This document shows, piece after piece, positions 26,172 through 63,371 of a stretch of DNA of 64,000 nt (position 1 is the first letter of the stretch; the number at the start of each line of letters is the position of its first letter). Origin of the DNA: Luteitalea sp. (GTDB taxonomy: Bacteria > Acidobacteriota > Vicinamibacteria > Vicinamibacterales > Vicinamibacteraceae). Where the stretch lies: assembly GCA_009377605.1 (NCBI GenBank), contig WHTT01000012.1, positions 1 to 64,000 on the forward strand, read 5' to 3'. The translations under genes were made by a program, and so were the position numbers. The notes under the pieces were generated by a model, which was given only the letters and a program-made list of their open reading frames with translations, had not been told where the DNA came from and made no database searches.

Positions 26172-26206
26172 TTCTTGTGCTCAACCATTTCAGGTTGCAT
26201 GCTCCC

Positions 26207-30013: not shown

Positions 30014-30028
30014 GGTTGGAGGTGTGGA

Positions 30029-46325: not shown

Positions 46326-47270
46326 TCAATTCAATTCGTGAACCTTGATGTTGCGATACCACACGTCGCTCTCGTGATCCTGGAACACGATGTGTCCCGT
46401 GCTCGCCACGGCGAACATCGGCCACTCCGTGAACTTACTCGCCTCGAGGCGCTGGTTCCAATCCGCGCTGTCACGCTCGTACTCGACCACCTTTTGACCG
46501 TTCAGCCAATGTTCCACATGGTCACCATTGACGACGATCTTCGACCAGTTCCACTCTCCTGCTGGCTTCGACGCATCCGTTGACGGGGGGTAGAGGTCGT
46601 AACAGGCGCCAGCAGTGCGATTGCCATTCGACCCCTGCTTGGCGTCGGGGTGACGGACGTTGTCGAGGATCTGGTACTCGGGACCGCTCCAATACGTCTC
46701 GTCTCCCTCCTCCGTCACTTGATACATCACGCCGCTATTCCCGCCAGGCGCAAGCTTCCACTCGAACACGAGCTCGAAGTTGCTGAACTCCTGCTCCGTC
46801 ACCAGGTCCGTGCCATCTCCCACGTAACTGATCGCGCCGTCTGCCACCTTCCAGCTCGTGGTCGCTGACGCCGACTTGAACCCGCGGAAGCCTGTCAGAT
46901 CCTTCCCATTGAAGAGCAGCTCCCAGCCCGCGTCCCCTTCTTCGGGACTGAGCGTGTTGAGCGCAGGCGCGCCACCGGCGGCCGCGACTCCGGTCCAGCC
47001 CTCCCTGGCACCTTTCTTCGTTCCTGTCACCACTCCGCTTGCAGCAGCCGCGCCTGTCTTGACGCCCTTCTTCGTTGCATCAACGCCCTTCCTTATCGCC
47101 CCCGCGGTCGCCTTGCTCGCTTTTTTGGCCACTGACTCACTCCCTTTCTTCGCCTTTTCGGGAGCGCTTTGGCCTGACTTCTCACCGCCCTGCGACTGCG
47201 CCATGGCCGGCAACATCATCGCCCAGGCCAATGCAGTGGTCATCGTCATCAGCATCAAGAAGCGCTTCAT
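46326..47270 (-). CDS. DUF1080 (3-keto-disaccharide hydrolase-type) protein with Lys/Ala-rich N-terminal segment
   Basis: The start MKRFLMLMTMTT with GGAG upstream gives 314 residues and a signal peptide (to about AMAQ). Residues about 25-90 are low-complexity and Lys/Ala/Gly-rich (KKASKATAGAIRKGVDATKKG), an unusual addition. From about 100 the DUF1080 jelly-roll is clear: WELLFNGKDLTGFRGF, GGNSGVMYQVTEEG, PEYQILDN and VWYRNIKVHEL. Family knowledge: DUF1080 enzymes act on 3-keto-glycosides (hydrolysis or elimination) after C3 oxidation by Gfo/Idh/MocA dehydrogenases. Such a dehydrogenase-family gene lies directly upstream on the same strand. Confidence 0.88.
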   Translation of the reverse strand: MKRFLMLMTMTTALAWAMMLPAMAQSQGGEKSGQSAPEKAKKGSESVAKKASKATAGAIRKGVDATKKGVKTGAAAASGVVTGTKKGAREGWTGVAAAGGAPALNTLSPEEGDAGWELLFNGKDLTGFRGFKSASATTSWKVADGAISYVGDGTDLVTEQEFSNFELVFEWKLAPGGNSGVMYQVTEEGDETYWSGPEYQILDNVRHPDAKQGSNGNRTAGACYDLYPPSTDASKPAGEWNWSKIVVNGDHVEHWLNGQKVVEYERDSADWNQRLEASKFTEWPMFAVASTGHIVFQDHESDVWYRNIKVHELN

Positions 47271-47323
47271 GACTGACTCCTTTCGTCGAGCGAGGCTGGC
47301 CTCGCTTTTGAGCATCCTGCCGC

Positions 47324-47371
47324 ATCACCCTGTCACCTCTCTCACCGTGTCACCCAACCCTCGCCCTGTCA
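47324..47371. repeat. GTCACC-type tandem repeat between DUF1080 and Gfo/Idh/MocA genes
   Basis: Imperfect TCACCCTG, TCACCTCT, TCACCGTG and TCACCCAA units fill about half of the roughly 100-base gap. They are related to the right arm at 8729-8790. Confidence 0.6.
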
Positions 47372-48649
47372 AGAAAGGTCGTACTGGCCTGGCATCGCGA
47401 CCGCCGGCGTGGGCATCGGCCCCAGCTCCAACGTCTCAGGCACCAGCGACTGCTGCGCATCGAGCGCCTGCTCCCAGGTCACGAGCTGGCCGCTGTACCC
47501 GGCCATCCGGCCCATGATCGCGGTCAGCGTTGACTCGGCCACCTGTTTGAGCTCGTTGAGCGGTGTTCCTTTACGAATGCTCTCGATGAGATCCGTGTGC
47601 TCCTGCACGTACGGGCTGATGGGATCCTTGGTCCCAGTCCAGGCCTGTGCCCCTTTGATCTCGTACCGGTTCGGATCCGTATCGCAGGTCCCTTTGGTGC
47701 CGACGAGGGCCTCGGCGATGCGGTTGGCACAGTCGTCGATCTGCCGGCACATGCTCAGCGCGTGGACACCGTTTTGGTACTCGAAGTCCACCGCGAAGTG
47801 GTCATAGATGTTGCCGAACTCCGGCGCGGTGCGGGCTTGCCTGCCCGCCAGTGCGACGGCAGCTACCGGATGCCCCTGCATTGCCCAGTTCACCACATCG
47901 ATGTTGTGCACATGTTGCTCGACGATGTGATCGCCGGAGAGCCAGGTGAAGTAGAGCCAATTACGCACCTGCCACTCGACGTCGGTCCAGTCTGGCTGCC
48001 GCTCCCGGTTCCAGAGAAAGCCCTGGTTCCAGTAGCACCGCGCGGCGACGACGTCGCCGATGGCACCGTCATGGATCCGCTTCATCGTCTCGATATAGCC
48101 ATGTTGGTGGCGCCGCTGCGTACCGGCGGCAACCGCCAGTTGCTTCTGTGCCGCTTGGTCCGCAAGCGCCAGCACCTTGCGAATGCCAGGCCCGTCGACC
48201 GCCACCGGCTTTTCCGTGAACACGTGCTTGCCCGCCGCGATGGCCGCTTCGAGATGGAGCGGTCGAAAGCCGGGAGGTGTAGCGAGGATGACGTAGTTGA
48301 TGTCGCTCGCGAGCACCTTCTGGTAAGCATCGAGACCGACGAAGCAGTGATCGTCCGCGACGCTCGCGGTCTCGCCGAATTTCTTCGCCAGCATCTTGCG
48401 GGATTGGTCGAGACGGTCGGCAAACGCATCACCCATGGCCACGAGCCGAACCCCCTCCGCACCACGGAGCGCGTCACCCGCAGCACCCGTGCCGCGGCCG
48501 CCGCAACCTATGACTCCGATACGAATCTCGTCGGATCCTGCGGCGTACGCACCGGCCAGGCTGGCCGTCGTGGCGAGGCTGGTCCCCACGGCCGCTGCGG
48601 TCGCGCTCTTGAGGAAATCGCGACGCGAAAAGGAGTCGTGCTCGCTCAT
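47369..48649 (-). CDS. Gfo/Idh/MocA family oxidoreductase, Tat-exported
   Basis: The start MSEHDSFSRRDFLKSA (426 residues) has GGAGAA upstream and supplies a Tat signal; the open frame upstream is antisense to other sequence. Landmarks are IGVIGCGGRGTG (Rossmann), ILATPPGFRPLHLEAAIAAGKHVFTEKP and the active-site region HIVEQHVHNIDVVNWAM. Family knowledge: exported members oxidise glycosides or sugars at C3 or deacylate them with bound NAD. It is 11 bases after the SUMF1-like gene and upstream of the DUF1080 gene on the same strand, so a combined oxidation and cleavage pathway is inferred. Confidence 0.9.
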   Translation of the reverse strand: MSEHDSFSRRDFLKSATAAAVGTSLATTASLAGAYAAGSDEIRIGVIGCGGRGTGAAGDALRGAEGVRLVAMGDAFADRLDQSRKMLAKKFGETASVADDHCFVGLDAYQKVLASDINYVILATPPGFRPLHLEAAIAAGKHVFTEKPVAVDGPGIRKVLALADQAAQKQLAVAAGTQRRHQHGYIETMKRIHDGAIGDVVAARCYWNQGFLWNRERQPDWTDVEWQVRNWLYFTWLSGDHIVEQHVHNIDVVNWAMQGHPVAAVALAGRQARTAPEFGNIYDHFAVDFEYQNGVHALSMCRQIDDCANRIAEALVGTKGTCDTDPNRYEIKGAQAWTGTKDPISPYVQEHTDLIESIRKGTPLNELKQVAESTLTAIMGRMAGYSGQLVTWEQALDAQQSLVPETLELGPMPTPAVAMPGQYDLS

Positions 48650-48660
48650 GATTGTTCTCC

Positions 48661-49719
48661 TCACATGCTGTCTTTGGTCACCTTCGACCGAATAGCACGC
48701 AGCTCCGGCTGCTCTTCGGCTGCGCGAACGATGCGCAGGCCGACGAACGACTCGTCTGGATGCCACCAAATGCTCTGCGGCTGCTGCGGATCACTTGCGC
48801 TCCACTCCTCGCTCGATGCGAGGCGCGCCGCGTAACGTACCTCCTCGGCGCCATCCAGATACGACCCGCCGCGCACCACGTGCGGATAGCGCCGGTCGTC
48901 CGGTACCAAGACCGGGCGCTCGAGCGGCTGCGGCAGCACGGACAGCTCTTCGTATCGCTCGGCATCGTACTGATCGAGGACCCACTCGGCGACGTTGCCC
49001 AGCATGTCGTGGAGTTGCCAGGCATTTGGCGCCTTGTCACCCACGGGCTGCGGCCGGCCGTTGGCGTTCTCCTCGAACCACGCGTGCTCGCCCAACCCCT
49101 TCGGCGCCGCGCTCGTATCCCCAGCCCGAGCAGCGTACTCCCACTCGGCCTCGGTCGCCAAGCGATACGCCTTCCCGGTCACCTCCGAGAGCCAGCGGCA
49201 GTATTCCATGGCGGCGTGGTGAGTCATGGCGATGGCCGGCTGCTGCCCCTTGGCAAAGCCCCGCGCTTCATCTCCGTACGGGCGAGACGGCCGGCTGATT
49301 GCATCCGTATCACCCGCACCGGAATCGACCGTCCGCAGGCCCTTGGCGCCCTGCGCAAAGGCGTACTCGTCGAACTCGTCCCACGTCACCTCATGCTTGC
49401 TGATCCAGAACGGCGCGAGCTCCACCTGCACCTGCGGCCCCTCGTCTTCACGGCGGCCCGGCTCGCCTGCCCCGAGCGAAGTCGCGGCACTGCCCATCGT
49501 GAGCTTGCCGCCAGGGATGGCGACCATCTCGAAGCTCACGCTCGTCTCGGGAATCTTCTCGATGTAGGTAGTGCCCGCCTTGAAGGTGTCTGCCGCTCCT
49601 TGGGTTGGCGCGCTCGGCGCGGCGAGCAGCGTTGCCATTGGTGTGGCGAGCACCGCTGCCAGGGCGCTGGCAACGATCTGCGTCCGTTTCACCAAGCGTC
49701 TACACTGCGGGTTGAGCAT
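48661..49719 (-). CDS. SUMF1/formylglycine-generating-enzyme-like domain protein, without the active-site cysteines
   Basis: The 352-residue protein has a signal-like N-terminus (IVASALAAVLATPMATLLAAP) and the SUMF1 fold: FEMVAIPGGKLTMGS, FWISKHEVTWDEFDEYA, LATEAEWEYAARAG, LGNVAEWVLDQYDA, VVRGGSYLDGAEEVRYAARL and FVGLRIVRA. In true formylglycine-generating enzymes two copper-binding cysteines lie in the segment after GGS; none is present here and no sulfatase is nearby. It is therefore more likely a binding or structural member of the family. It is 11 bases upstream of the Gfo/Idh/MocA gene and probably co-transcribed. Confidence 0.85.
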   Translation of the reverse strand: MLNPQCRRLVKRTQIVASALAAVLATPMATLLAAPSAPTQGAADTFKAGTTYIEKIPETSVSFEMVAIPGGKLTMGSAATSLGAGEPGRREDEGPQVQVELAPFWISKHEVTWDEFDEYAFAQGAKGLRTVDSGAGDTDAISRPSRPYGDEARGFAKGQQPAIAMTHHAAMEYCRWLSEVTGKAYRLATEAEWEYAARAGDTSAAPKGLGEHAWFEENANGRPQPVGDKAPNAWQLHDMLGNVAEWVLDQYDAERYEELSVLPQPLERPVLVPDDRRYPHVVRGGSYLDGAEEVRYAARLASSEEWSASDPQQPQSIWWHPDESFVGLRIVRAAEEQPELRAIRSKVTKDSM

Positions 49720-49781
49720 CTGTCTATCATAATGCCCGAGCCCCCAGGGACGCGACGGCGGGGCGTGTAACGAAAGTGGGA

Positions 49782-49805
49782 GCGAGGGGCCGCGAGGCCC
49801 CTCGC
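49782..49805 (-). terminator. Hairpin after the Oar-like receptor
   Basis: GCGAGGGGCC and GGCCCCTCGC form a 10-bp perfect stem with a four-base loop (GCGA), 12 bases past the receptor stop. There is no strong T-tract, so termination is inferred. A related GAGGGGCCCCTC core occurs at 58908. Confidence 0.5.
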
Positions 49806-49817
49806 CCTTGCTCGTTA

Positions 49818-52800
49818 TCAGAACTGGAACCGCAGGCTGAGCTGCACGTCGCGCTGACCGCCCTTCGAGACCACACGACCGAAGTCAGCGTTCGTGGGAT
49901 CGGTAACCACGCCGCTCAGGTTAGGGTGGTTCGGGAAGTTGAAAATCTCCGCCCGAAACTGTACCCGCCGCGCGCCTCCGAGGTTGAAGTTCTTGAACAG
50001 CGCGATGTCCCACTGCTGGTTACCCGGATGGCGGAACAGGTTCCGCGTCTGGTTGCCGAACGTTCCCGCCGCAGGGTCCGCGAACGCGTCGGGATTGATG
50101 AAGAAGTTGTCATCCTCCCCGTCCGAGAACTCCCGGCTGGTGCCTGCTTCTGGATCGCCAACGACATCGATCGGCTGGGCGAAGCTGTCGCCGACGCCGG
50201 CAATGTCGTTCGAGCGCGTGACAGAGAACGTGTCGCCCGTTCGCAAGAACGTCGCACCGGAGATTTGCCAGCCGCCGAGCAAGCTCGCCATCACCGAGCC
50301 CCCTTCGCGGAAGAAGGGGAGATCGTAGATGTATTGGAACGTGAGCACGTGGCGCCGGTCGTAGCTGGACGGCCCATAGAAGCTCGTATCGTCGAAGCTG
50401 TTCCAGATGACGTTGCGCTTGTCACTGCCGTTGTCCTCCGATTTGCTCAGCGTGTACGCCACCGCGACCTTCAGGCCGTTGCTGTAACGACGCTCGGCGC
50501 TGAGCTGGAGGCCGTGGTAGATCGATTTCCCCGCGTTCTCGGTGATACGGAGTGCGCCGTACCCTGTAAACGGCCGCAACGCTGCGGGGTTGACGTCAGG
50601 ATTGGCCAGGAGCGTGCCAGCGGGCATCTGGTTGAGATTGCGCTCGCGTTGCAGATAGAGTCCCCGGCGGCCGACGTAGGCGACATCCAGGACGAACCCA
50701 TAGGGGATCTCGCGCTGCACGCCGGCCGACCACATATAGGCCGTCGGATGCTTGAAGGCAACGTCCTGGGCCTGCATGCCAAACGGCAGATCCGTGGCGC
50801 CACCCGAGCCGCCCCCGGGGTTATCCGCGCTGCCGTTCGCCACGGTGACCATCGGCTGGAACGGCGGGTTGCCGCCGAGCAGCGACGAGTCGTTGAGCGT
50901 CACGCGGTTGTGGAAGATTCCACCGCTCGTGCGGAGGATGGTCTTGTCGTCGATCGCGTACGAGATGCCGAGCCGCGGTTCGATCGCGTTTGAGTGGGTC
51001 TCGGAGAAACCGCGCGGCTCGCCGAGGAACAGCGCCTGCACTCTCGGGTCCTGCGCCACGACCAGATCGTTCCCCTCGCCGATGAAGCCGTCACCCGGCA
51101 GGACAATCCCGTTGAACCGGTCGCCTCCGACAAGGCGTCCGGTGTTGGGGTCGATGACCGCCGCGCGTGAGGGATCGAAGAACCGCGGGTCGAAGTTCGC
51201 GATGTTGTTCGTCGTCGAATGCCACGGCGGCCAGACGACCCAGCGCATCCCCCCTTCAATGGTGAGCTGGCTGGTCGGCCGCCAGGAATCCTGGATGAAG
51301 AAGTCGGTGGCCAAGGCACGCCACTTGGTGAAGGCACGCTCGCCCAGCTCGGCATAGTTCGTGAAGAGCCCGAGACCCATGTCCGAGATCGCCAGACCGG
51401 TGCCGCTCGCTCGGTCGTCGCGGAACTCGAACCGGCCGTTTTGATTGTTGGTGCCGCCCGGGATGGCGGCGACGTTGATCTGGTCGAAATCGTCCTCGCC
51501 GGAGTACTCGACGCTAACGCCGCCCTTGAGCGTGTGCCGGCCCTTCACCCAGGTTGTGACGTTGGACCACGTGTGGATCGGCCCTGCGGAGAAAGCCGGA
51601 TACGGTCCGCCGTCGATATCGGCGAAGCCGTCGATCGAGATGGTGGGAATCTTGTCGTCGATCTCCTTGCCGGGAAAGATGTACGGATAGTTGATCCCCG
51701 TGCGGCTCCGCTGATGGAGACCTGACTCCGTGAAGACGTCGATGAAGACCTCGTCGAGCGAGTGCGTATAGGTGAACTCGTTGATGAGATTGTTCGTCAA
51801 CGTGCCGGTCCAACTGAAAACCTGGGTCCGATTCGGCCGCTCCCAGTCGGTGCGCGCAAACGGGAACGAGCCGCGGAACGGATCGACCGCGACCCAGTTC
51901 GAGCCGGAGTAGCGGTAGGTGAACTGGTTGCGCGCGTTGAGCCGATAGTCGAGGCGTAGCGTGTCCTTCCGCTGGTCCTGCGGGTTGTCGCTCGTCTGAA
52001 TCAGGTTGTCGCTGCCCTGCTGAAAGCCGGGCGTCGGCTCTGGATACAGGTTCAGAAACGCGAGACCATTCGCCGAGAGCCGGTCCTGCGGGATCACGTT
52101 GCCAGGGAATGGCCGGCCAGTCCGCGGGTCGATGATCTCCCGGCGCTCGTCGAAGAAGGGGTTGTTCGAATTGAGCAGCTCGCTGAAGTCGCCCCGGCGC
52201 ATGGCCGCCGTAGGTACGGTGTCGGTTCGCGTCGCCACCTGGAAGAAGTCCACCCACTCTTGTGCACCGAAGAAGAAGAACTTGTCCCTGAAGACCTCGC
52301 CCGGTACCGGACCGCCAAAGGCGTACCCGTACTGTTTGTAATCGAACGGCGCAGGCCCCGAGTTCTCGTCCTCGTTGGGGCTCCGGTTGCGGCTCCAGCT
52401 GTTGGCCTGCAGCGCTTCGTCGCGGAGGAAGTACGACCCGCTGCCGGTGTACCGACTGCTGCCGCTCTTGGTCACGAAACGGATCTGTCCGCCGCTCGCA
52501 CGGCCGTACTCCGGCATGTAGTTGGCCGTGAGCACCTGCACTTCCTGGATGGCATCGACGTTCTGGACGGCGATGATGGTGCCCGCCGATCGTGTGCGGA
52601 CGGCGACGGCACCGTCGATGCTGATCGTGTTCTCATCAGACCGGCTGCCGTTGATATTGAACCCGCCGTTGGTCAGGCTGGAAAAGCCGGCGTTGTTGAA
52701 GTTCCCGCCGCTGACGCCTGCCTTCAACGCCGCCACCCCAATGGGATTGCGGCCATTGAAGGACATGAGCTCGATGTCCTTGGCTTCGACCGTCTTTCGC

Positions 52801-53222
52801 ACGGCGACGTCCGTCTGTAGCGGGGGCGCTTCCGCGGTCACGGTGACTTCCTCCGTGATCGCACCGGTCTCGAGGACGAAGCCAATCGTCAGCGACCCCG
52901 CGGCGTCGAGCTGCACGCCTGGGCGACTGACCCGCTTGAAGCCCTGAAGCTCCACCGTGATGTCGTACTGCCCCGGCCGAAGGTTTGGAAACGTATAGAA
53001 GCCGCTCTCGTCGGTCACGGCGACCTGCACCTGCTGCGTTTGTACGCTCGTCGCGGTCACCGTCACGCCCGGGATCATGGCGCCCGTCTCGTCTCGGACG
53101 GCGCCGGAGACTGTCCCTCGATCGAGCTGGGCTAGCGCAGGCCCGGCGCCCACGAGAACTAGCGCCACAAGCTGACATCCTCTGTGGAACACGCTCCTCC
53201 ACATATTTGTCCCCGAGTTCAT
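49818..53222 (-). CDS. Oar-like TonB-dependent receptor with carboxypeptidase-regulatory-like domain
   Basis: The 1134-residue protein starts at an ATG preceded by AGGAGGATGAG and overlaps the stop of a small upstream ORF (ATGA). The signal peptide ends near ALA before QLDRG. The regulatory-like domain (GTVSGAVRDETGAMIPGVTV) is followed by a plug with FNGRNPIGVAALKAG, GFNINGSRSDENTISIDGA and GGQIRFVTKSGSSRYTGS. The barrel ends in SLRFQF. It belongs to a different subfamily from A, B and C. Position upstream of the SUMF1-like, Gfo/Idh/MocA and DUF1080 genes on the same strand suggests that it imports the glycoside they process. Confidence 0.9.
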   Translation of the reverse strand: MNSGTNMWRSVFHRGCQLVALVLVGAGPALAQLDRGTVSGAVRDETGAMIPGVTVTATSVQTQQVQVAVTDESGFYTFPNLRPGQYDITVELQGFKRVSRPGVQLDAAGSLTIGFVLETGAITEEVTVTAEAPPLQTDVAVRKTVEAKDIELMSFNGRNPIGVAALKAGVSGGNFNNAGFSSLTNGGFNINGSRSDENTISIDGAVAVRTRSAGTIIAVQNVDAIQEVQVLTANYMPEYGRASGGQIRFVTKSGSSRYTGSGSYFLRDEALQANSWSRNRSPNEDENSGPAPFDYKQYGYAFGGPVPGEVFRDKFFFFGAQEWVDFFQVATRTDTVPTAAMRRGDFSELLNSNNPFFDERREIIDPRTGRPFPGNVIPQDRLSANGLAFLNLYPEPTPGFQQGSDNLIQTSDNPQDQRKDTLRLDYRLNARNQFTYRYSGSNWVAVDPFRGSFPFARTDWERPNRTQVFSWTGTLTNNLINEFTYTHSLDEVFIDVFTESGLHQRSRTGINYPYIFPGKEIDDKIPTISIDGFADIDGGPYPAFSAGPIHTWSNVTTWVKGRHTLKGGVSVEYSGEDDFDQINVAAIPGGTNNQNGRFEFRDDRASGTGLAISDMGLGLFTNYAELGERAFTKWRALATDFFIQDSWRPTSQLTIEGGMRWVVWPPWHSTTNNIANFDPRFFDPSRAAVIDPNTGRLVGGDRFNGIVLPGDGFIGEGNDLVVAQDPRVQALFLGEPRGFSETHSNAIEPRLGISYAIDDKTILRTSGGIFHNRVTLNDSSLLGGNPPFQPMVTVANGSADNPGGGSGGATDLPFGMQAQDVAFKHPTAYMWSAGVQREIPYGFVLDVAYVGRRGLYLQRERNLNQMPAGTLLANPDVNPAALRPFTGYGALRITENAGKSIYHGLQLSAERRYSNGLKVAVAYTLSKSEDNGSDKRNVIWNSFDDTSFYGPSSYDRRHVLTFQYIYDLPFFREGGSVMASLLGGWQISGATFLRTGDTFSVTRSNDIAGVGDSFAQPIDVVGDPEAGTSREFSDGEDDNFFINPDAFADPAAGTFGNQTRNLFRHPGNQQWDIALFKNFNLGGARRVQFRAEIFNFPNHPNLSGVVTDPTNADFGRVVSKGGQRDVQLSLRFQF

Positions 53223-53443
53223 CTCATCCTCCTCCCAAAAGTCGCACCGCCGAACGTGGCGGCCTCATTCAAAAGGCTCAAAGCTGCAATACGCTCGCCG
53301 TGATCCGACGACGCTGTCGGTCCCTGATCGCGACCGGCTGAAGGTTGGAAAAGGGGTAGAACCGCGGTGCCGGCCATGACTAGGGCCAAGCCCCAACATA
53401 CCGGTCGAATGAGGCGCGCAAGCCTCCTCATGCGTGAGCACAT
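53219..53443 (-). CDS. Small membrane/exported ORF translationally coupled to the receptor (hypothetical)
   Basis: This 74-codon frame starts at an ATG with a strong GGGGGAGGAT site and ends in TGA overlapping the receptor ATG. The product has a positively charged N-terminus (MCSRMRRLARLIRP) and one hydrophobic segment (WGLALVMAGTAVLPLF), then a polar tail. It could be a small membrane protein or a leader peptide controlling receptor translation. No family was recognised. The strong start site and exact overlap favour a real gene; shortness and missing homology evidence keep confidence modest. Confidence 0.5.
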   Translation of the reverse strand: MCSRMRRLARLIRPVCWGLALVMAGTAVLPLFQPSAGRDQGPTASSDHGERIAALSLLNEAATFGGATFGRRMR

Positions 53444-53484
53444 ATCCTCCCCCTCAAAGACCGCTCAATAAATGGCGGTCGAAC

Positions 53485-53508
53485 TTTCACACTACAAGAA
53501 GTGTGAAA
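53485..53508. promoter_or_regulatory. Operator-like palindrome upstream of the small ORF and receptor
   Basis: TTTCACACT-ACAAGA-AGTGTGAAA is a perfect 9-bp inverted repeat with a 6-base spacer, 42 bases upstream of the small ORF start and in AT-richer sequence. Size and symmetry suit a dimeric repressor or activator site. Confidence 0.55.
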
Positions 53509-53526
53509 CATCGGCGTGAATCCCTC

Positions 53527-53648
53527 ACGCACGCAAGACCACGAAGGGTCAACCACGAAGAACACGAAGAGCTCACCACGAAGTTCACGAAGAAGAAGTT
53601 CAAATTGTTTACTTCGTGATCTTTATGTCCTTCGTGGTTGATTTTTCG
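53527..53648. repeat. CACGAAG tandem repeat with inverted arm
   Basis: CCACGAAG, AACACGAAG and TTCACGAAG units (53527-53590) are followed by complementary CTTCGTG copies (about 53611-53640). The block ends shortly before the TIM-barrel stop. It is the same unit as at 18812, about 35 kb away. Confidence 0.75.
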
Positions 53649-53663
53649 TGTCCTTGGCGACCA

Positions 53664-54506
53664 TCAAGACTCGAGCGCCTTCCGACAATAGTCCAAGCAC
53701 CTCCTCACTTCTGCGACCGTATCCGTGCCCTTGTACTCGTATTCGATGTTGGCCTGGATCGGCCACCCACCTTCGCGCACCAACTGCAGCACCTCGGTGA
53801 TCGGCGTGTCCCCCTCGCCGAACGGCACGTTGTCGCCCTGGTCGCGCCTCCGATCCTTGATGTGGAGCGCCAGGACGTCGGCGTGATGCTCCTCGAGGAA
53901 CGCCACCGGGTCGAAGTTCGCCGCCACGAAATGCCCGATGTCGAGGTTGATCTTGATGGCATCCCCGCCGAGCTCCTGCGCGCGCGCGAAGTCATCCGGC
54001 GTCGCCGTCTCGTCGTTCCCGATCCGCGAGTGATTGTGATAGGCGACGACCATGTCGGCCTTCCTGGCCAGCGGTCCAATTCGCCGAGCCAGGCTGACCT
54101 TCGTCGACGTGGTCACGAGCGTCACGCCGAGCGCACGGGCAAACTCGAACGTGCGCGCAAGCTCCTCGTCTGTGGCATCCGGCGAGAACTGCCCGTTGAA
54201 GGCGTGAATCGCCACGCCCGCCTTGTCGAAGAGCGCCTTGGCCTGCTGAAAGTCCTCGGCGGTGGCCGGCTCCTTGTTGGGTCGCTGGACATGCCCAGCC
54301 CACAGCTCGCAGGTCTCGATCCCGAGCGTGGCCATGGCGTCGACTGCCGCCGCCAGCTCCAGGTCGCGAAAGCTGTAGCTCTGCACCCCAAGCTGCACGC
54401 CGCGGATGGCCGCGGTCACCACGGAGGAGGCAGCCCCGCTCCAGCCGACGAGTGCCGTCCCTGCCGTCGTCGCAGCGAGCGTGTGCAGAAAGTCACGACG
54501 ATTCAT
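53664..54506 (-). CDS. Sugar phosphate isomerase/epimerase-type TIM-barrel protein, Tat-exported
   Basis: The start MNRRDFLHTLAATTAG with GGAGCTC upstream gives 280 residues and a Tat signal. The AP-endonuclease-2/xylose-isomerase-like barrel is seen in VQLGVQSYSFRDLELAAAVDAMATLGIETCELWAGH, in the metal-ligand motifs INLDIGHFVAAN and VLALHIKDRRRDQGDNVPFGEGD, and in IQANIEYEYKG. Exported members of this family occur with Gfo/Idh/MocA and DUF1080 genes and are implicated in glycoside elimination or hydration via 3-keto sugars. Its start is eight bases after the stop of a Gfo/Idh/MocA gene, so the two form an operon. Confidence 0.88.
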   Translation of the reverse strand: MNRRDFLHTLAATTAGTALVGWSGAASSVVTAAIRGVQLGVQSYSFRDLELAAAVDAMATLGIETCELWAGHVQRPNKEPATAEDFQQAKALFDKAGVAIHAFNGQFSPDATDEELARTFEFARALGVTLVTTSTKVSLARRIGPLARKADMVVAYHNHSRIGNDETATPDDFARAQELGGDAIKINLDIGHFVAANFDPVAFLEEHHADVLALHIKDRRRDQGDNVPFGEGDTPITEVLQLVREGGWPIQANIEYEYKGTDTVAEVRRCLDYCRKALES

Positions 54507-54514
54507 ATGAGCTC

Positions 54515-55966
54515 CTACCGTGCAGCGACGCGCGCACTCGTGCGCGCTGTGTTCTCGCCGTCCACTTCGACCATCTTTTCTGGATCCCACGAGACCGGAC
54601 GCTGTTCGAAGTAGCTGACGTTCGACAACACGGCCGGTCCGGCCGCCCGCAGGCCAAAAGTCGGATCCTCGACCACGGGCTTACGCGTGCGCACCGCGTT
54701 GAAGAAATTCGCGAAGTGATCGTAGCTGTCATCGTACCCACGCGGCGCCGTCCATACTTCCTCGGGCTGCTCTCCCATGGCGGCGTGGGTCCGGCTGAAC
54801 GAGGGCTCCTCTTCCGGATACTTCTGGTAGTACTCCTCGAGGAACGCTTCCTGCACCGCTTCGGGGAACGTGTCGATGGTATGGCCAGGCGCTTTGGAGC
54901 GCGCGCTCTTGGCCACCCGCACCTCGTCGCCCTCGAGCGTCAGCATGCCGTCGCTCCCAACGAATCGAAATTGAGAGCCTCCGCCACCGCCAGCCGCGAA
55001 GTCGACCCTGAGCGTGAGGTTGAACGCGGGATGTGTGGCCGTCTTGGGATAGTCGCACACCGCGATCATCACGTCCGGCACATCCCGGCCATCGTTCCAG
55101 AAGCGCAGGCCGCCGGCCGAGAGCACGCGCGTCGGCCCGTTCGACGCGAGAATGTAGTGGATACCCGAGAAGAGGTGAACGAAGAGGTCGCCCGCAACGC
55201 CGGTCCCGTAGTCGCGATAGTTGCGGAATCGAAAGAGCCGCATGGCCTCGAACGGACGCTTGGGTGCCGGTCCGAGATAGCGGTCCCAGTCGATTGTCTG
55301 AGGCGAGGCGTCGGGCGGCATCGAATACTGCCACGCCCCAAGCGCCGAGTTGCGATCGATGTACGCCTCGACGAGATTGAGATCGCCAATCGCCCCGGCC
55401 TCGATCAGCTCACGCGCTTTCGTGTACACGATCGAGCTCACCCGCTGGCTGCCCACTTGCAGGATGCGCCCCGTCTTCTTGGCCCCATCGATGAGCGCCT
55501 GCCCCTGGTCCGCGTGCTGGACCATCGGCTTCTCCACGTACACGTCTTTGCCCGCCTTCATGGCGTCGAGCGCGATCTGCTGGTGCCAGTGATCCGACGT
55601 GGCGATGATCACGGCGTCCACATCCGGGCGCGCGAGAATCTCCTCGTAGTGGCGGGCGGTCACGAGGTCGTCGCCCCACCGCTCCTTGCAGCGGGTCATC
55701 CGGCCGTCGTAGCAGTCGGAAGCCGCCACCAGCGCAACGCCAGGAACCTGAAGCGCCACCTCCGCATCGTGCTGCCCTTGCCCGCCCGCGCCAATCAGCG
55801 CGACCTGGATCTTGTCGTTGGGCGACGGCGCGGGAGGCGGGGCTTGTCGAAGCGGCAGGACGCGCGCCTCGGCACGACCTGGGTCGAACGCCGCCGCCCC
55901 GAACGCGAGCGAGCCGGCAGCAGATACCTTCAAGAAATCTCGACGGGAAGCCATTCGGTCAGCCAT
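54515..55966 (-). CDS. Gfo/Idh/MocA family oxidoreductase, Tat-exported
   Basis: The 483-residue protein starts with MADRMASRRDFLKVSA, a Tat signal. Landmarks are VALIGAGGQGQHDAEV, VIIATSDHWHQQIALDAMKAGKDVYVEKP and GDLFVHLFSGIHYIL. The length with an extra Gly-rich loop (AAGGGGGSQFRFVG) suggests a periplasmic GFOR-like member. It is first in an operon with the exported TIM-barrel gene and diverges from a third Gfo/Idh/MocA gene across about 400 bases. Its likely role is oxidation of a glycoside at C3 or a similar step, by inference. Confidence 0.9.
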   Translation of the reverse strand: MADRMASRRDFLKVSAAGSLAFGAAAFDPGRAEARVLPLRQAPPPAPSPNDKIQVALIGAGGQGQHDAEVALQVPGVALVAASDCYDGRMTRCKERWGDDLVTARHYEEILARPDVDAVIIATSDHWHQQIALDAMKAGKDVYVEKPMVQHADQGQALIDGAKKTGRILQVGSQRVSSIVYTKARELIEAGAIGDLNLVEAYIDRNSALGAWQYSMPPDASPQTIDWDRYLGPAPKRPFEAMRLFRFRNYRDYGTGVAGDLFVHLFSGIHYILASNGPTRVLSAGGLRFWNDGRDVPDVMIAVCDYPKTATHPAFNLTLRVDFAAGGGGGSQFRFVGSDGMLTLEGDEVRVAKSARSKAPGHTIDTFPEAVQEAFLEEYYQKYPEEEPSFSRTHAAMGEQPEEVWTAPRGYDDSYDHFANFFNAVRTRKPVVEDPTFGLRAAGPAVLSNVSYFEQRPVSWDPEKMVEVDGENTARTSARVAAR

Positions 55967-56369
55967 GATGGTTTCATCTCAGCGCTGGAGGGAGGAGCCG
56001 CACCGTCCAAGCTAGGCTCATACTGGTGTGACCATTGAGACAAACGACGATGTATCAGCTCCCGAATCAGTGGATTATCGAATTGTAGCATGGAGCCGAT
56101 CCGCCGGTTAAGGCAAGATCAGGAATCAGGACACGGGAATTAGCAATCGGCTTGCCATGAGCGAGCCTAACGGCTCGCCGAAGGCGGGCCGTCAGGCGAG
56201 TCGAATGGAAAAAGCGTGATAGGATTCGCTCGAATTGCACCAGTGCTGACCACAAGAAGATCAGGGTCCAATGTGGTCCTACCAACATTGCCTCGGTGCG
56301 CTAACGGCCGCCTCGGCGAGGCGGCCCTACCGAGGATTGTTGGTTCCGGTCAGCAAGGAGACGCAACCC
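55967..56369. other. Divergent intergenic region between two Gfo/Idh/MocA genes
   Basis: This about 400-base region contains a hairpin GCGAGCC-TAAC-GGCTCGC at 56161-56178, some ATCAGGA repeats near 56110 and a REP-like palindrome at 56306-56331. Promoters for both directions must lie here; AT-richer sequence near 56065-56095 is a candidate zone. No gene is seen. Confidence 0.5.
56306..56331. repeat. REP-like palindrome copy near the Gfo/Idh/MocA start
   Basis: GGCCGCCTCGGCGAGGCGGCC is a perfect palindrome followed by CTACC. It ends about 40 bases before the start codon and so may be in the 5' untranslated leader. Confidence 0.8.
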
Positions 56370-57719
56370 ATGGCAACCGATCGACGAACGTTCATTCGCA
56401 TGGCGGGGGCTGGCGCAGCCGGTCTGGCCGTGACGCCAGCCTCGAGCTATGCGCGCATCCTCGGGGCGAACGACCGCGTGCGCGTCGGCGTCGTGGGCTT
56501 CTCGGATCGCTGCAGGGGCTCGCTCCTCCCGGCGTTCCAGAGCCACGCCAACCCACTCAACTTCGAGCTCGTCGCCGTCTCGGACATTTGGAGCCGCAGA
56601 CGCGACGACGGTGTGGCAGCGGTCGAGAAGCTCGCCGGGAGAGCGCCCGCCGCCTGCCGGAACAACGAAGAGCTCTACGCGCGCAATGATGTGGATGCCG
56701 TGATCATTGCAACGGCCGACCATCAGCACGCGTATCACTGCATCGAGGCGGTGACCGCGGGGCGCGATTGCTACGTCGAGAAGCCCTTCGCGCACACGAT
56801 GAAGCATGCGCGCGACGCGCGCCAAGCGGTCAAGGAGTCCGGCAAGATCATGCAGGTCGGGACGCAACGCCGGAGTGCCGCGAACTATCAGGCGGCGGCC
56901 GACTTCATTCAGTCCGGCAAGTTTGGCGACCTCGTCATGGTCGAGATGACCTGGAACGTCAACCAACCGGGCCGCTGGCGGCGGAAGGAGCTCGTCCAGG
57001 AGATCCGCCCTGAAGAGACGGACTGGAAGCGGTTCCTCATCGACTACGAGGACGAGCCGTGGGATCCGCGAAAGTATTTGGAGTTCCGGCTGTTCTGGCC
57101 GTATTCCTCTGGGATTCCGGATCAGTGGATGGTGCATCAGATCGACACGGTGCACTGGTTCACTGGCCTGCCCCGCCCGCGCAGCGTCGTTGCCAACGGG
57201 GGCGTCTACCTCTGGAAGGACGGCCGCGTGAACTGGGACACCTTCACCGGCGTCTTCGACTATGGTCCGCTCGACGATCCCTCCAAGGGCTTCCAGGTGG
57301 TCTACGCCTCACGTATGACCAACTCGGCGGGCGACGTGAAGGAGATCTATCGGTCCAACGGTGGCACGCTGGATCTCGACCAGAACAAGGTGACGCCCGA
57401 GGGTGGCCTCGAGCAACGCCGCGCATCCGCCATGGGCATGGACGCCAATCTCTTGTCGGAGGCGTCACTCTCGGCGGCGGCCAAGATGGAGACGGGTGCC
57501 GACACCGGCGCCGACAACGCCACTTCGGCCAACATGCGGAACTGGATGGAATCGGTGCGAAGCCGCAAGACGCCGAATGCAGATATCGAGGCTGCCTACA
57601 ACCATTCGGTCGCCCTCTGTATGACCATTGCCGCCATGCAGACGGGCCAGCGCATTTCGTTCGATGATGAGCGGCAAGATGTCGTCATTGGAGGAGGGAA
57701 CCGTGGAACGCAGGAATAG
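56370..57719 (+). CDS. Gfo/Idh/MocA family oxidoreductase, Tat-exported
   Basis: The start MATDRRTFIRMAG (449 residues) has AAGGAG nine bases upstream and forms a Tat signal; upstream open frame is repeat sequence. Landmarks are VGVVGFSDRCRGS (a degenerate Rossmann Gly motif, with F-S replacing the usual G-x-G), VIIATADHQHAYHCIEAVTAGRDCYVEKP and IPDQWMVHQIDTVHWF. The altered Gly motif could alter cofactor binding. Its 3' end overlaps the DUF6807 start by 17 bases, so the two are coupled. Likely role is oxidation of a sugar or glycoside in the periplasm. Confidence 0.88.
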   Translation: MATDRRTFIRMAGAGAAGLAVTPASSYARILGANDRVRVGVVGFSDRCRGSLLPAFQSHANPLNFELVAVSDIWSRRRDDGVAAVEKLAGRAPAACRNNEELYARNDVDAVIIATADHQHAYHCIEAVTAGRDCYVEKPFAHTMKHARDARQAVKESGKIMQVGTQRRSAANYQAAADFIQSGKFGDLVMVEMTWNVNQPGRWRRKELVQEIRPEETDWKRFLIDYEDEPWDPRKYLEFRLFWPYSSGIPDQWMVHQIDTVHWFTGLPRPRSVVANGGVYLWKDGRVNWDTFTGVFDYGPLDDPSKGFQVVYASRMTNSAGDVKEIYRSNGGTLDLDQNKVTPEGGLEQRRASAMGMDANLLSEASLSAAAKMETGADTGADNATSANMRNWMESVRSRKTPNADIEAAYNHSVALCMTIAAMQTGQRISFDDERQDVVIGGGNRGTQE

Positions 57720-58860
57720 CGGGTGGAGCTCTTGGTCCGCTGCGGCGGGCGCTCTCACGGCAGCGGCTGTTGGTGTCGCCGCGTTTGCCGTGTCGGTTGC
57801 CGGCTCTCCGCGCACCCAGAACGGCTCATCTGGAGCCGGCGAGGAGGGGCGTGTCGAAATCGTGCCGCACGACGAGCAGCGCCGTGTGGACATCGAGGTG
57901 GACGGCAAGCCGTTCACCTCCTATATCTGGCCGACCACGCTCAAGAAGCCGGTCCTTTACCCGTTGCGAACGGCCGAAGGCGCGGAAGTGACGCGAGGCT
58001 TTCCTCCGAAGCCTGGCGAGCGTGCCGACCATCCGCACCAGGTCGGGCTGTGGTTCAACTTCGGCAACGTGAACGGCTTCGACTTCTGGAACAACTCCGA
58101 GGCCATCCCGGCTGATCGCGAGCCGAAGATGGGAACGATCCTCCACGAGAAGATCACGGAGACGCAGAGCGGCCCCGGAGAAGGGCGCCTGGGTATTCAG
58201 GCACTCTGGCGGCAAGGCGACGGGAAGGAGATCCTGCGCGAGGACACGACATTCGTCTTCAGGGCGAGCCCCGGCGTGCGAACCATCGACCGCGTGACGA
58301 CGCTGACGCCGCTGGCGGCGTCGGTCGCGATGAGTGACACCTCCGGCGGCGAGCCCGCAGAGGCAGCCAAAGAAGGCGTGCTCGGTATTCGGGTGGCCAG
58401 AGCGCTCGAGGATCCAAACGAGGAGGGCGGGCAGTTCACCGATGCCTCCGGCAAAGTAACCAAGGTCGAACAAATGGATACGTCCGGCGTCACCGGCGTC
58501 TACACCAGCAGCGAGGGCAAGACGGCCGGGGATGTCTGGGGTACGCGCGGCCGTTGGACCATGCTCTCTGGTACCGTGGACGACAAGCCGGCGACGATTG
58601 CAATTCTCGACACGCCGAGCAATCCCGGCTTTCCCACGTACTGGCACGCGCGTGGCTACGGCCTCTTTGCCGCGAACCCACTCGGCCAAGCGGTCTTCAG
58701 TGAAGGAAAGGAGCGGCTCGACTTCTCGATCGCCGCCGATGAGCCAGCGAAGTTCCGCTATCGCGTGCTCATCCTGAGCAGCCAGCCGTCTGCCGAGGAA
58801 ATGGAAGAGCTCTATCAGGAGTGGGTGAAGACGAACGAAGGTGAATCGGTGACAAGGTGA
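57703..58860 (+). CDS. DUF6807 (PmoA-like) family protein, exported
   Basis: A GTG start (VERRNSGWSSW) lies just after GGAGGAGGG and overlaps the Gfo/Idh/MocA gene by 17 bases, giving 385 residues. The N-terminus is signal-like (AGALTAAAVGVAAFAVSVAGS). The body carries DUF6807 marks: KPVLYPLRTAEGAEVTRGF, DHPHQVGLWFNFGNVNGFDFWNN and GFPTYWHARGYGLFAANPLG. The family is often annotated as methane-oxygenase PmoA, which is unsupported. Members commonly accompany Gfo/Idh/MocA genes in sugar loci, and a jelly-roll sugar-binding or epimerase-like role is plausible. The last codons run into a GTGACAGG tandem repeat. Confidence 0.85.
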   Translation: MERRNSGWSSWSAAAGALTAAAVGVAAFAVSVAGSPRTQNGSSGAGEEGRVEIVPHDEQRRVDIEVDGKPFTSYIWPTTLKKPVLYPLRTAEGAEVTRGFPPKPGERADHPHQVGLWFNFGNVNGFDFWNNSEAIPADREPKMGTILHEKITETQSGPGEGRLGIQALWRQGDGKEILREDTTFVFRASPGVRTIDRVTTLTPLAASVAMSDTSGGEPAEAAKEGVLGIRVARALEDPNEEGGQFTDASGKVTKVEQMDTSGVTGVYTSSEGKTAGDVWGTRGRWTMLSGTVDDKPATIAILDTPSNPGFPTYWHARGYGLFAANPLGQAVFSEGKERLDFSIAADEPAKFRYRVLILSSQPSAEEMEELYQEWVKTNEGESVTR

Positions 58861-58885
58861 CAGGGTGACAGGGTGACAGGGTGAC
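58849..58885. repeat. GTGACAGG tandem repeat overlapping the DUF6807 stop
   Basis: Four to five GGTGACAG units begin within the last codons of the gene (SVTR and stop) and continue about 25 bases past it. The unit is the same as in the left arm near 8640. Confidence 0.75.
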
Positions 58886-58889
58886 GACA

Positions 58890-58926
58890 CGTAGCGCGCG
58901 AGCGCGACGAGGGGCCCCTCGCTACG
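58890..58926. terminator. GC-rich hairpin between DUF6807 and cytochrome genes
   Basis: CGTAGCG (58890-58896) pairs with CGCTACG (58920-58926), and inside lies the self-complementary CGAGGGGCCCCTCG. No T-tract follows, so a terminator or REP-like role is only inferred. Confidence 0.45.
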
Positions 58927-59015
58927 TACCAAGTGAGCTACCGAAACGTGGCGTTAAGGTAAGATGGGTTGATGTGCTGGCGTGGCCAACCTGAACCTCG
59001 AGAGGGCTTGCAAAC

Positions 59016-59405
59016 GTGAAACGCCTTGTCGGACTGTCACCTTTCATCTTTGCAGCGAGCGTCGTGCTCGCCGGAGCGTTCTTTCTCGGATCCAAGCTCG
59101 TGATGGCGCAAGAAGCGGGAACGGCTCAAGCGTCGGCGGATCCGAAGGCCGAGGAGATCTACACGACACGGTGCGTGGCCTGCCATGGCGCCGACGGCGA
59201 CTCGCAGCTTCCGGAGATGAGCTTTACCGACGGAGTCTGGAAGCACGGCTCTTCGGAGGGGGAAGTTGCGAAGACCATCACGGACGGCGTGCCTGGCACC
59301 GCCATGATGCCGTTCGAATCGCAGCTCTCACAAGAAGAAATCGAGACGCTCGCCAAGTACGTGCGGCAGTTCGATCCGAAGCTGCGCGAGGGGGACAAGG
59401 AATAG
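59016..59405 (+). CDS. Class I c-type cytochrome, exported/anchored
   Basis: The 129-residue protein starts at a GTG; the ribosome-binding site is weak. The N-terminal segment (LSPFIFAASVVLAGAFFLGSKLVMAQ) is a signal or membrane anchor. The haem motif is CVACH (Cys53, Cys56, His57), and the axial Met is in TAMMPFESQLSQEEIETLAKYVRQF, the usual C-terminal helix. Size and motifs fit small cytochrome c (cytochrome_CBB3-like). Next to exported Gfo/Idh/MocA and DUF6807 genes it may accept electrons from a periplasmic sugar oxidation, but this is inference. Confidence 0.9.
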   Translation: MKRLVGLSPFIFAASVVLAGAFFLGSKLVMAQEAGTAQASADPKAEEIYTTRCVACHGADGDSQLPEMSFTDGVWKHGSSEGEVAKTITDGVPGTAMMPFESQLSQEEIETLAKYVRQFDPKLREGDKE

Positions 59406-59555
59406 GGATCTAGGGATCTAGGGCTCTAGGGTTCCAGGGTTCCAGGCGTAAAGGGGCCGACGCTTCCACCGTCGGCCCGAAGAGCCTACCACCTGCATTC
59501 GCACGACCCGTTCCCTAGATCCCTTGGCCCCTAGATCCCTTGCCCCGTCACCCTT
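59403..59555. repeat. Inverted tandem repeat arms at the cytochrome/TIM-barrel convergent junction
   Basis: The left arm has TAGGGATC units (59403-59445), starting within the cytochrome stop codon. The right arm has CCCTAGAT and related units in the reverse sense (59513-59540), ending before the TIM-barrel stop. The loop contains GGGCCGACG and CGTCGGCCC (59455-59479), a second perfect 9-bp inverted repeat. Confidence 0.75.
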
Positions 59556-60431
59556 TCACACATCACAAAGCTGCACCGCTTCCCCGAGCGAGGTCAGCGG
59601 CTCGCGCGTTGGGATGAACTCGTGCGCGAAGTACCCCGTGTAGCCCTTGTCGACGATGGCGCGCGCGATGGCATCCCACTGGAGCTCTTGCGTGCCGTCG
59701 AGCTCATGACGGCCTGGTACGCCGCCCGTGTGGAAGTGGCCAATGTAGTCCCAGTTATCCGTGATCGTCCGGATGACGTCCCCCTCCATGATCTGCATGT
59801 GGTAGATGTCGTACAGCAGCTTGACGCGAGGTGAACCGACCGCCTTCATCACCTGGACGCCGAACGGTGTGTGGTCGCCCTGGTAGCCCTCGTGATCGAC
59901 CTTGCTGTTCAGCAGCTCGACGCAGACGGTCACTTCGTGCTCCTCAGCGACCTTGACTACTTTGCCCAGCGCGTCGGTACAGTTGCGCACCGCTTGCTCA
60001 TCGTCGATGTTCGGTCGCCGGTTTCCGAAGAAGACGATCACATTCGGCACGCCGGCCTTGGCCGCCCTCGGGATGGCCGAGGTGAGCGCCGACACAATCT
60101 CGTCGTGATTCGCTGGATCGTTCAGACCATCTGGAATCGAGCCGGCACGGACCGATCCCATCGAGCAGGTCAGACCGTACTCCTTGGCAACCGACCAGTC
60201 TTCCTCTCTCAAGAGGTCGATGGCCGTGAGGCCGAGGTCCGCGACGCCTTTACAAAACGTGCGGAATTCGACCTTCTCGTAACACCAACGACAGACCGAC
60301 TGCTTCAAGCGCGCCTTCGAGACGACGTTCTCCCCCGCCGCCCCAGCGGCTGCGATCCTCGTGGCACCGGCACCCAAGGCTAGCGCCGCACCGCCCGCGG
60401 TCGTTAGCACATCCCGCCTCGTGATGTCCAT
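59556..60431 (-). CDS. Hydroxypyruvate isomerase-like TIM-barrel protein, Tat-exported
   Basis: The 291-residue protein begins MDITRRDVLTTAGG, a Tat signal. The barrel has DIYHMQIMEGDVIRTI, a hallmark of hydroxypyruvate isomerase (Hyi)-like enzymes, with metal-ligand residues also in VCVELLNSK and GHFHTGGVPGRHEL. It is the last gene of the minus-strand uronate operon, 11 bases after ManD. True Hyi is cytoplasmic, so export suggests a different substrate, such as a keto-sugar or elimination product. Confidence 0.87.
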   Translation of the reverse strand: MDITRRDVLTTAGGAALALGAGATRIAAAGAAGENVVSKARLKQSVCRWCYEKVEFRTFCKGVADLGLTAIDLLREEDWSVAKEYGLTCSMGSVRAGSIPDGLNDPANHDEIVSALTSAIPRAAKAGVPNVIVFFGNRRPNIDDEQAVRNCTDALGKVVKVAEEHEVTVCVELLNSKVDHEGYQGDHTPFGVQVMKAVGSPRVKLLYDIYHMQIMEGDVIRTITDNWDYIGHFHTGGVPGRHELDGTQELQWDAIARAIVDKGYTGYFAHEFIPTREPLTSLGEAVQLCDV

Positions 60432-60442: not shown

Positions 60443-61654
60443 TTACCAGCTGTGCATCGTCCCGTCGACCCGCCGATTCACCGGGAGGTAAGCGGGGTCG
60501 TACGGGTACTTTGCCGCGAGATCCTCGTCGATCTCAACGCCCAAGCCTGGCTCGTCGCCCGGGTACATGTAGCCGTCCTGGAACGTGTACGCGTGCGGAA
60601 ACACACGATCGGTCTCGTTCAGGTGCGGCATGTATTCCTGGACGCCGAAGTTGTGAACCGACAGATCGAAGTGGAGCGCCGCCGCGATGCAGACCGGGCT
60701 CATATCGGTGGCGCCGTGGCAGCCCGTGCGTACTTGGTGCATTTCGGCAAGGCTGGCAATCTTCCGCAGGTGCGTGATCCCACCTGCATGAACAACGGTT
60801 GTCCGAATGTAGTCGATGAGCTGTTCCTGTATGAGCTTATAGCAATCGAACACACTGTTGAACACTTCGCCCACGGCAATGGGCGTTGTCGTGTGCTGGC
60901 GAATGATACGGAAGCCTTCTTGGAGCTCGCCGGGCGTCGGATCCTCCAGCCAGAGCAGGTGAAATGGCTCGAGCAGTTTGCCGGCGCGCGCCGCCTCTAT
61001 TGGGGTGAGGCGATGGTGGGCATCGTGTAGCAGGTGCACATCTGGGCCGAACTCGGCACGGACTCGCTCGAAGAGCCCGGGCAGAAAGTTCAGATACGCC
61101 TCGGAGCTCCAGCGGCTCTCGGTCGGCGCGGCGCCACGCTCAGCCGGCTCATAGAACATTGCGCCACGGCCGACGCCGTATGTGCTGGCCAAGCCGGGGA
61201 TCCCGGACTGCACCCGCACCGCCTTGTATCCAAGGTCGAGGTAGTGCGCAACGGCCCGCACGGCATCCTCGACCGTTTGACCGTTGGCGTGCCCGTAGAC
61301 GAGCACACCCTCGCGTGAGGCGCCACCAATCAACTGGAACACCGGCACGCCGGCGGCTTTGGCCTTGATGTCCCAGAGGGCCATGTCCACGGCCGAAATC
61401 GACGCCATGGTCACGGGGCCCCGGCGCCAGTACGCGCCTACGTACAGATACTGCCACGTGTCTTCGATTCGGCGGGCATCGCGGCCGATGAGCAGCGGAA
61501 TGACATGGTCGTTGAGGTAGCTGACAACGGCAAGCTCACGCCCGTTGAGCGTTGCGTCGCCCAAACCGGTGACGCCGTCTTCGGTCACGAGCTTCAACGT
61601 CACGAAGTTACGACCCGGACAACACACGATCACCTTCGCATCGACGATTTTCAT
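60443..61654 (-). CDS. manD: D-mannonate dehydratase, enolase superfamily (ManD/RspA-type)
   Basis: The 403-residue protein has the capping domain start [27 protein letters not shown] and the enolase barrel. Family marks are [69 protein letters not shown] and [20 protein letters not shown]; the carboxylate metal ligands lie in the Asp/Glu positions of these motifs. Length and motifs match ManD closely. Family knowledge: Mg-dependent dehydration of D-mannonate (some D-gluconate) to 2-keto-3-deoxygluconate. KdgK and Eda follow in the pathway and are encoded upstream in the same operon. Confidence 0.9.
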
Positions 61655-61668
61655 AAGACCTTGGTCCC

Positions 61669-63356: not shown

Positions 63357-63371
63357 AAAAGCAGGGACCTA

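Follow-up and report, generated by a model that had tools for sequence, protein, structure and literature searches.

Gene content of the locus

The 64,000-nucleotide stretch examined here (positions 1 to 64,000 of contig WHTT01000012.1 of a Luteitalea sp., a soil acidobacterium; hereafter the window) carries toward its right end an array of genes for a DUF1080 protein, Gfo/Idh/MocA oxidoreductases and TIM-barrel proteins, several of them bearing signals for export by twin-arginine translocation (Tat). A preliminary description had named ten proteins between 46326 and 60431 and assigned them to a candidate locus for the cleavage of 3-keto-glycosides. All ten were found in their places, and a Pfam scan confirmed their families. 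The proposed type of locus is supported as well, but its boundaries had been drawn wrongly. The array forms the left half of a larger unit, about 30 genes and about 33 kb in size (contig positions ~46.3-79.5 kb), which also takes in a sugar-acid operon and GMC dehydrogenases; positions 60443-64000, which had been overlooked, belong to this unit, and it runs about 16 kb beyond the end of the window. The left half comprises the following genes:

46326..47315, minus strand: exported protein of the DUF1080 / 3-keto-disaccharide hydrolase family (PF06439, 182 bits against a cut-off of 26.8)
47369..48649, minus strand: GFO1, Tat-exported Gfo/Idh/MocA oxidoreductase (Pfam, RR motif; start corrected)
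48661..49719, minus strand: SUMF1/FGE-like exported protein (PF03781, 137 bits)
49818..53222, minus strand: Oar-like TonB-dependent outer-membrane protein (CarboxypepD_reg and OMP_b-brl_4)
53664..54506, minus strand: TIM1, Tat-exported AP_endonuc_2 TIM barrel (PF01261, 71 bits, RR signal; start corrected)
54515..55966, minus strand: GFO2, Tat-exported Gfo protein (Pfam, RR motif; window's genus only)
56370..57719, plus strand: GFO3, Tat-exported Gfo protein (Pfam, RR motif; start corrected)
57628..58860, plus strand: DUF6807 protein (PF14100, 257 bits)
59016..59405, plus strand: exported mono-haem c-type cytochrome (PF13442; one CXXCH)
59556..60431, minus strand: hydroxypyruvate-isomerase (HPI)-like Tat-exported TIM barrel (PF01261, 105 bits, RR signal)

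The starts listed for several open reading frames (ORFs) lay too far upstream; the corrected positions are about 48649 for GFO1, about 54506 for TIM1 and 56370 for GFO3. Each of the three Gfo and two TIM proteins listed above has an RR motif at its N-terminus, and the DUF1080, SUMF1-like and DUF6807 proteins and the cytochrome have hydrophobic N-termini. As had been claimed, the window's main ORFs include no Pfam glycoside hydrolase (GH) and no member of the SusD family. The genome as a whole has 28 DUF1080, 53 Gfo and 35 AP_endonuc_2 matches, and its densest 15-kb cluster of such genes (6 members) begins at 46341. Across the genome, 6 of 22 DUF1080 genes lie within 5 kb of a Gfo gene, against 6.5% expected (p = 0.002), and at 10 kb the p value is 0.04; this proximity is only modestly above chance, so that genome-wide clustering is weak evidence.

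PF06439 (DUF1080) is now named 3-keto-disaccharide hydrolase in Pfam, and in our alignment the window's protein keeps the motifs NSGvMY, PEYQILDN..HPDAK, HVEHWLNG.KVVEY and QDH..vWYRNI that are common to family members in the PDB. Between its signal peptide and domain lies a Lys/Ala-rich linker of about 75 residues, found in the window's genus and absent in a second genus of the family, which is possibly a surface or envelope anchor. In the HPI-like protein, E172, D208, H234 and E271 are invariant in 12 of 12 aligned homologues and are likely metal ligands; its nearest PDB entries are mostly ketose 3-epimerases. For the DUF6807 protein a sequence search of the PDB gave no match. Its AlphaFold model (pLDDT 88) has weak best matches in the PDB, mostly to galactose-mutarotase-like supersandwich domains (E from 1e-5, TM 0.3-0.4), and the model therefore suggests a sugar-binding or mutarotase-like role. 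The SUMF1-like protein was also considered as a sulfatase activator. This is ruled out by the absence of the catalytic Cys pair of formylglycine-generating enzymes (FGE): its only cysteines are Cys6, in the signal region, and Cys174, and since Cys6 is thus accompanied by a single other Cys, the protein is by its sequence unlikely to be such an enzyme.

Short head-to-tail repeats lie between genes of the locus: CAGGGTGA units, and GGATCTAG/GGGTTCCAG units, at window positions 58861-58890 and 59406-59450.

Directly beyond 60431, on the strand of the HPI-like gene, lies a sugar-acid operon, in which KDG stands for 2-keto-3-deoxygluconate, KDPG for 2-keto-3-deoxy-6-phosphogluconate, KHG for 2-keto-4-hydroxyglutarate and MFS for major facilitator superfamily:

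60443..61654, minus strand: ManD, D-mannonate dehydratase (NF043051, 711 bits, above the cut-off of 550)
61669..62694, minus strand: PfkB sugar kinase, probable KDG kinase (PF00294; NF041332, 250 bits, below the cut-off of 440)
62691..63356, minus strand: KDPG/KHG aldolase (PF01081, 149 bits; TIGR01182, 186 bits, above 156)
63425..64000, continuing to contig position 64795, minus strand: MFS transporter of sugar-acid type (PF07690; TIGR00893, 240 bits, below the cut-off of 395)

Past the MFS gene the same contig encodes a short-chain dehydrogenase/reductase (SDR), a GntR/FCD regulator, a further TIM protein (TIM2, without a match in a sequence search of the PDB), GFO4, two tandem pairs of a GMC large subunit beside a gluconate-2-dh3 small subunit (PF05199, PF13618; the pairs are 66% identical), GFO5, a second GntR-type gene, the xylulokinase XylB and the xylose isomerase XylA. 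GFO4 is a levoglucosan-dehydrogenase (LGDH)-like Gfo protein, matching over its full length structures of that type (6a3f, which we take to be one) and scoring 191 bits with the LGDH model. A uronate isomerase, UxaC, is encoded on another contig, C47 (281 bits against 25).

Conservation of the unit

We compared the unit with the only other genome of the window's genus (G001) and with five genomes of the second genus (G002-G006), three of which cover it whole and two of which (G004, G006) are cut by contig ends. In G001 the complete array is present with unchanged gene order, at 69-93% identity. In the second genus, at 46-81% identity, the order DUF1080, GFO1, SUMF1, Oar, GFO3, DUF6807, cytochrome, HPI, ManD, KDG kinase, KDPG aldolase, MFS, SDR, GntR, GFO4, GMC, gluconate-2-dh3, GFO5 is kept, a statement that does not take in the second gluconate-2-dh3 small subunit; the strands of the genes are also kept across both genera. 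Identities between the genera are 64-66% for GFO1, 63-67% for the Oar-like protein, 71-72% for GFO3 and 77-81% for ManD. XylB and XylA were observed in G003 and G005. TIM1 and GFO2 are confined to the window's genus, and in the second genus another TIM protein takes the place of TIM2. The neighbourhood is thus co-conserved apart from TIM1, GFO2 and TIM2, and conservation of the 14-kb stretch as a whole, as first delimited, is ruled out both by the restriction of TIM1 and GFO2 to one genus and by the extent of the unit past the window.

At the left end, the second genus lacks the adjoining peptidase S10 gene and shows no cysteine desulfurase (NifS) match beside DUF1080 either, and for these reasons the locus appears truly to end at DUF1080. 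A permease-like gene directly follows DUF1080 in the second genus (L073:17853-19046), as it does in plasmid cassettes described below; no counterpart was seen beside the window's DUF1080 gene. Between the HPI-like and cytochrome genes, G002 and G003 have insertions encoding a GH29 alpha-L-fucosidase and an S9 peptidase (L071:2471-6201; L073:3503-7030), and no extra gene was found there in G000, G001 and G005. Absence of a classical glycoside hydrolase, which had been put forward as a feature of the locus, therefore does not define it.

Parts of the unit recur outside the family. GFO2, GFO4, two GMC/gluconate-2-dh3 pairs and DUF1080 cluster in two genomes (G046, G037), GFO3 is paired with DUF6807 in two (G026, G031), and GFO1 adjoins SUMF1 in three (G025, G029, G052). 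Relatives of GFO2 in Bryobacterales and Acidobacteriaceae mostly have none of these neighbours within 10 kb.

Candidate operators and proposed joint regulation

The palindrome TGGT-N3-ACCA is the published form of operator for many GntR regulators of the FadR subfamily (PMC4494728). It occurs twice in the 403 bp that separate GFO2 from GFO3 (0.003 copies expected, P about 5e-6):

56024..56034, plus strand: candidate GntR (FadR subfamily) operator 1, TGGTGTGACCA, conserved in G001
56274..56284, plus strand: candidate GntR operator 2, TGGTCCTACCA, conserved in G001

Both are conserved islands in a stretch that has otherwise diverged in G001. Of the second genus, G002 and G003 have a copy next to GFO3, and in four genomes the palindrome spans the start codon of GntR. 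The locus has 14 such sites per 238 kb, compared with 1 per 275 kb of other sequence from these and related genomes. For this difference p = 2e-4 was computed, the true significance being lower than this value suggests, as orthologous copies are counted several times. From the presence of the palindrome both before the 3-keto genes and at the sugar-acid operon we infer a single regulon, in which the GntR protein would control both sets of genes; the island is probably controlled by the GntR/FCD repressor.

Comparison with known systems

Reportedly, the 3-keto-glycoside pathway of Bacteroides of the BT2156-BT2160 type has been treated by Nasseri et al. in 2024 (Nature 631:199). In this system BT2158 is a periplasmic glycoside 3-dehydrogenase (PMC11300592) and BT2157 a DUF1080-family protein that hydrolyses 3-ketotrehalose (PMC9007349). 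The window resembles it in combining an exported Gfo dehydrogenase, a DUF1080 protein and an AP_endonuc_2 TIM barrel in one locus (PMC9007349, PMC11300592), and in that the solved structures in the PDB nearest to GFO2 are 8tdf and 8tdh. It differs in that no Gfo protein of the window is a BT2158 equivalog, and in the addition of extra Gfo, DUF6807, SUMF1-like, Oar, GMC and sugar-acid modules.

A second resemblance is to the combination of LacABC with DUF1080 reported by Price et al. for 3'-ketolactose in Caulobacter and relatives (PMC9007349). Cassettes of LacABC type with DUF1080, GMC, gluconate-2-dh3 and cytochrome c are already known (PMC9007349), and in our searches plasmids of Xanthomonas sacchari, Paracoccus and Palleronia combined GMC and gluconate-2-dh3 genes with genes for DUF1080, TIM and Gfo proteins, in Xanthomonas together with one for a cytochrome c. 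The window's unit shares with these systems GMC, gluconate-2-dh3, DUF1080, TIM proteins, Gfo and a transporter, and its cytochrome c is a possible counterpart of theirs. The HPI-like protein is 43% identical over 290 aa to the TIM protein beside GMC in a plasmid cassette, GFO4 39% over 387 residues to a cassette Gfo, GMC2 38% over 575 to a cassette GMC, and the cytochrome shares 35% identity with that of the Xanthomonas cassette over 82 aa. Coupling to a cytochrome, once put forward as a possible part of a distinct arrangement, is consequently not new. Unlike the LacABC systems, the window's unit has two tandem GMC/gluconate-2-dh3 pairs, with the cytochrome and DUF1080 genes 10-25 kb away, and it would have GntR/FCD instead of LacI control and is fused with the ManD/KDG operon.

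As far as the published description of the Agrobacterium O-glycoside eliminase operon (AtOGE/AtHYD/Gfo; PMC10628242) goes, it follows the same logic of C3 oxidation, elimination, hydration and Gfo reduction with TIM-barrel enzymes, and the parts consulted describe no DUF1080 or Oar there. The right half is like hexuronate operons under FadR-subfamily GntR regulators, with ManD, a KDG kinase-like protein, KDPG aldolase, MFS, SDR and GntR with TGGT-N3-ACCA sites; it is unlike them in its fusion with oxidative glycoside-cleavage genes and in the location of the uronate isomerase gene on another contig. In SusCD polysaccharide utilisation loci, too, an outer-membrane TonB-type protein adjoins exported glycan-active proteins, but among the window's main ORFs there is no SusD and no GH or polysaccharide lyase enzyme, and the receptor is Oar-like rather than SusC. 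The window encodes several more Oar-like receptors, so that a SusD-less receptor of this type looks like a trait of the lineage. The parts of the locus are of known kinds; their combination, and the joint regulation proposed for them, are new.

Proposed pathway and alternatives

We think it likely that the whole array is one catabolic unit of the 3-keto-glycoside type. In such a pathway the Oar-type receptor would take oligo- or small glycosides into the cell across the outer membrane. In the periplasm, the Tat-exported Gfo/Idh/MocA enzymes and/or the GMC/gluconate-2-dh3 flavo-dehydrogenases would oxidise a ring hydroxyl, most likely that at C3, with electrons from the latter passing to the c-type cytochrome. 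DUF1080 and the exported TIM-barrel proteins could then split the 3-keto-glycoside by elimination and hydration, and the MFS carrier would import the cleavage products. These are probably uronic acids and xylose fed into central metabolism, by way of ManD, KDG and KDPG in the one case and of XylA and XylB in the other.

The substrate may be a glucuronide or another hexuronate-bearing glycoside, a possibility short of an even chance in our view, for which the grounds are the ManD operon, the uronate isomerase gene of contig C47 and the shared operator. A fuller picture is speculative, and we would not expect it to hold in every part. In it the system would be directed at glucuronides, and one GntR-type regulator would couple the oxidative breaking of glycosidic bonds in the periplasm, by two kinds of dehydrogenase (cofactor-bound Gfo, cytochrome-linked GMC), with the KDG/Entner-Doudoroff pathway; DUF6807 would be a mutarotase-like enzyme, so far unrecognised, for the resulting keto-sugars.

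Several observations weigh against a 3-keto-glycoside unit under one regulator, or against a uronate substrate. ManD-family enzymes can use gluconate too. About 10 kb separate the cytochrome gene from the GMC genes, the operator at the start of GntR has one mismatch in the window's genus, the repeated counting of orthologous operators lowers their significance, and the comparison of gene order over the whole unit covered a single family. None of the Gfo proteins attains the cut-off of a functional equivalog: scores with NF058561 (BT_2158 glycoside 3-dehydrogenase) are 126 (GFO2), 79 and 54 bits against 750, and with NF058563 (the BT2159 equivalog) at most 33 against 650. For this reason sequence does not fix the substrate or the oxidised position. 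The fold of GFO3 is that of a normal Gfo protein; 8tdi, named 'Glucuronide-3-dehydrogenase' in the PDB, is among its top fold matches, but the match is not specific, since all Gfo folds match, and the fold search thus pointed to no particular function for GFO3. Our literature searches found no relevant paper on a glucuronide 3-dehydrogenase. Finally, the DUF1080 protein THTE_1561 can act as an ordinary endo-glucanase (PMC10881899), and in one study removal of BT2157 or BT2158 made no difference for raffinose-family sugars (PMC11501099), from which it appears that roles in these families vary.

It is unlikely, in our judgement, that the array consists of two independent neighbours, a 3-keto-glycoside set (46-59.4 kb) and a hexuronate/LacABC-like set (59.5-79.5 kb), placed side by side by chance. 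DUF1080, Gfo and AP_endonuc_2 genes are numerous enough in this genome for adjacency to be casual, the second GntR-type gene adjoins GFO5 and XylB, and most relatives of GFO2 are near none of these genes. Nevertheless, order and strand are kept across the two sets in both genera, one type of operator is common to the region upstream of GFO3 and to GntR, and the plasmid cassettes mix genes matching both halves. We regard as quite improbable a locus for free sugars, sugar acids or substrates of the levoglucosan or inositol type, with Gfo and TIM proteins acting on monosaccharides and DUF1080 serving as a conventional hydrolase or binding domain. The resemblance of GFO4 to levoglucosan dehydrogenases fits this explanation, as do weak matches of the IolG and IolE models to GFO1, GFO2, GFO3 and TIM1 and the endo-xanthanase/lichenase activity described for a DUF1080 protein (PMC10881899). 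On the other side, exported Gfo, DUF1080 and TIM proteins form the set of a BT2157/BT2158-type pathway (PMC9007349, PMC11300592), and GMC and gluconate-2-dh3 beside DUF1080 form the LacABC pattern (PMC9007349).

A third explanation, a locus of the conventional kind for polysaccharides that has lost its glycoside hydrolases or has them encoded elsewhere and whose oxidoreductases only process released sugars, would account for the GH29 gene within the orthologous locus of two relatives and for GH3 genes elsewhere in the genome. It agrees poorly with the uninterrupted HPI-cytochrome interval of the three other genomes, with the lack of GH115 in the genome and with the many exported oxidoreductases found instead, and we consider it very unlikely.

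In soil, Acidobacteria rank with the most abundant bacteria, and classical annotation of carbohydrate-active enzymes explains their glycan use poorly. If the 3-keto-glycoside reading is true, an island joining oxidative glycoside cleavage and uronate catabolism under one probable regulator offers a testable substrate class (glucuronides, glucuronoxylan fragments). The locus would also give the unannotated DUF6807 family a pathway and strengthen the case for GH-free glycan breakdown being widespread in soils.

Other features of the window

Left of the array, Oar-like receptors follow one another at 15513-18809, 26104-29664, 29843-33358 and 35127-38528; an Oar fragment at 19383-21281 spans only the middle of the barrel and is possibly a broken copy. 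Near this fragment, at 21106-25763, another Gfo/Idh/MocA gene precedes genes for an FMN-oxidoreductase-like protein and an MFS carrier. A gene for an AbiEii-type nucleotidyltransferase toxin of a toxin-antitoxin pair occupies 33737-34951. A second sugar-acid cluster lies on one strand at 7627-15147 and encodes a sugar ABC transporter, a Zn-alcohol dehydrogenase, a galactarate/altronate-dehydratase-like protein and an NAD-dependent epimerase.

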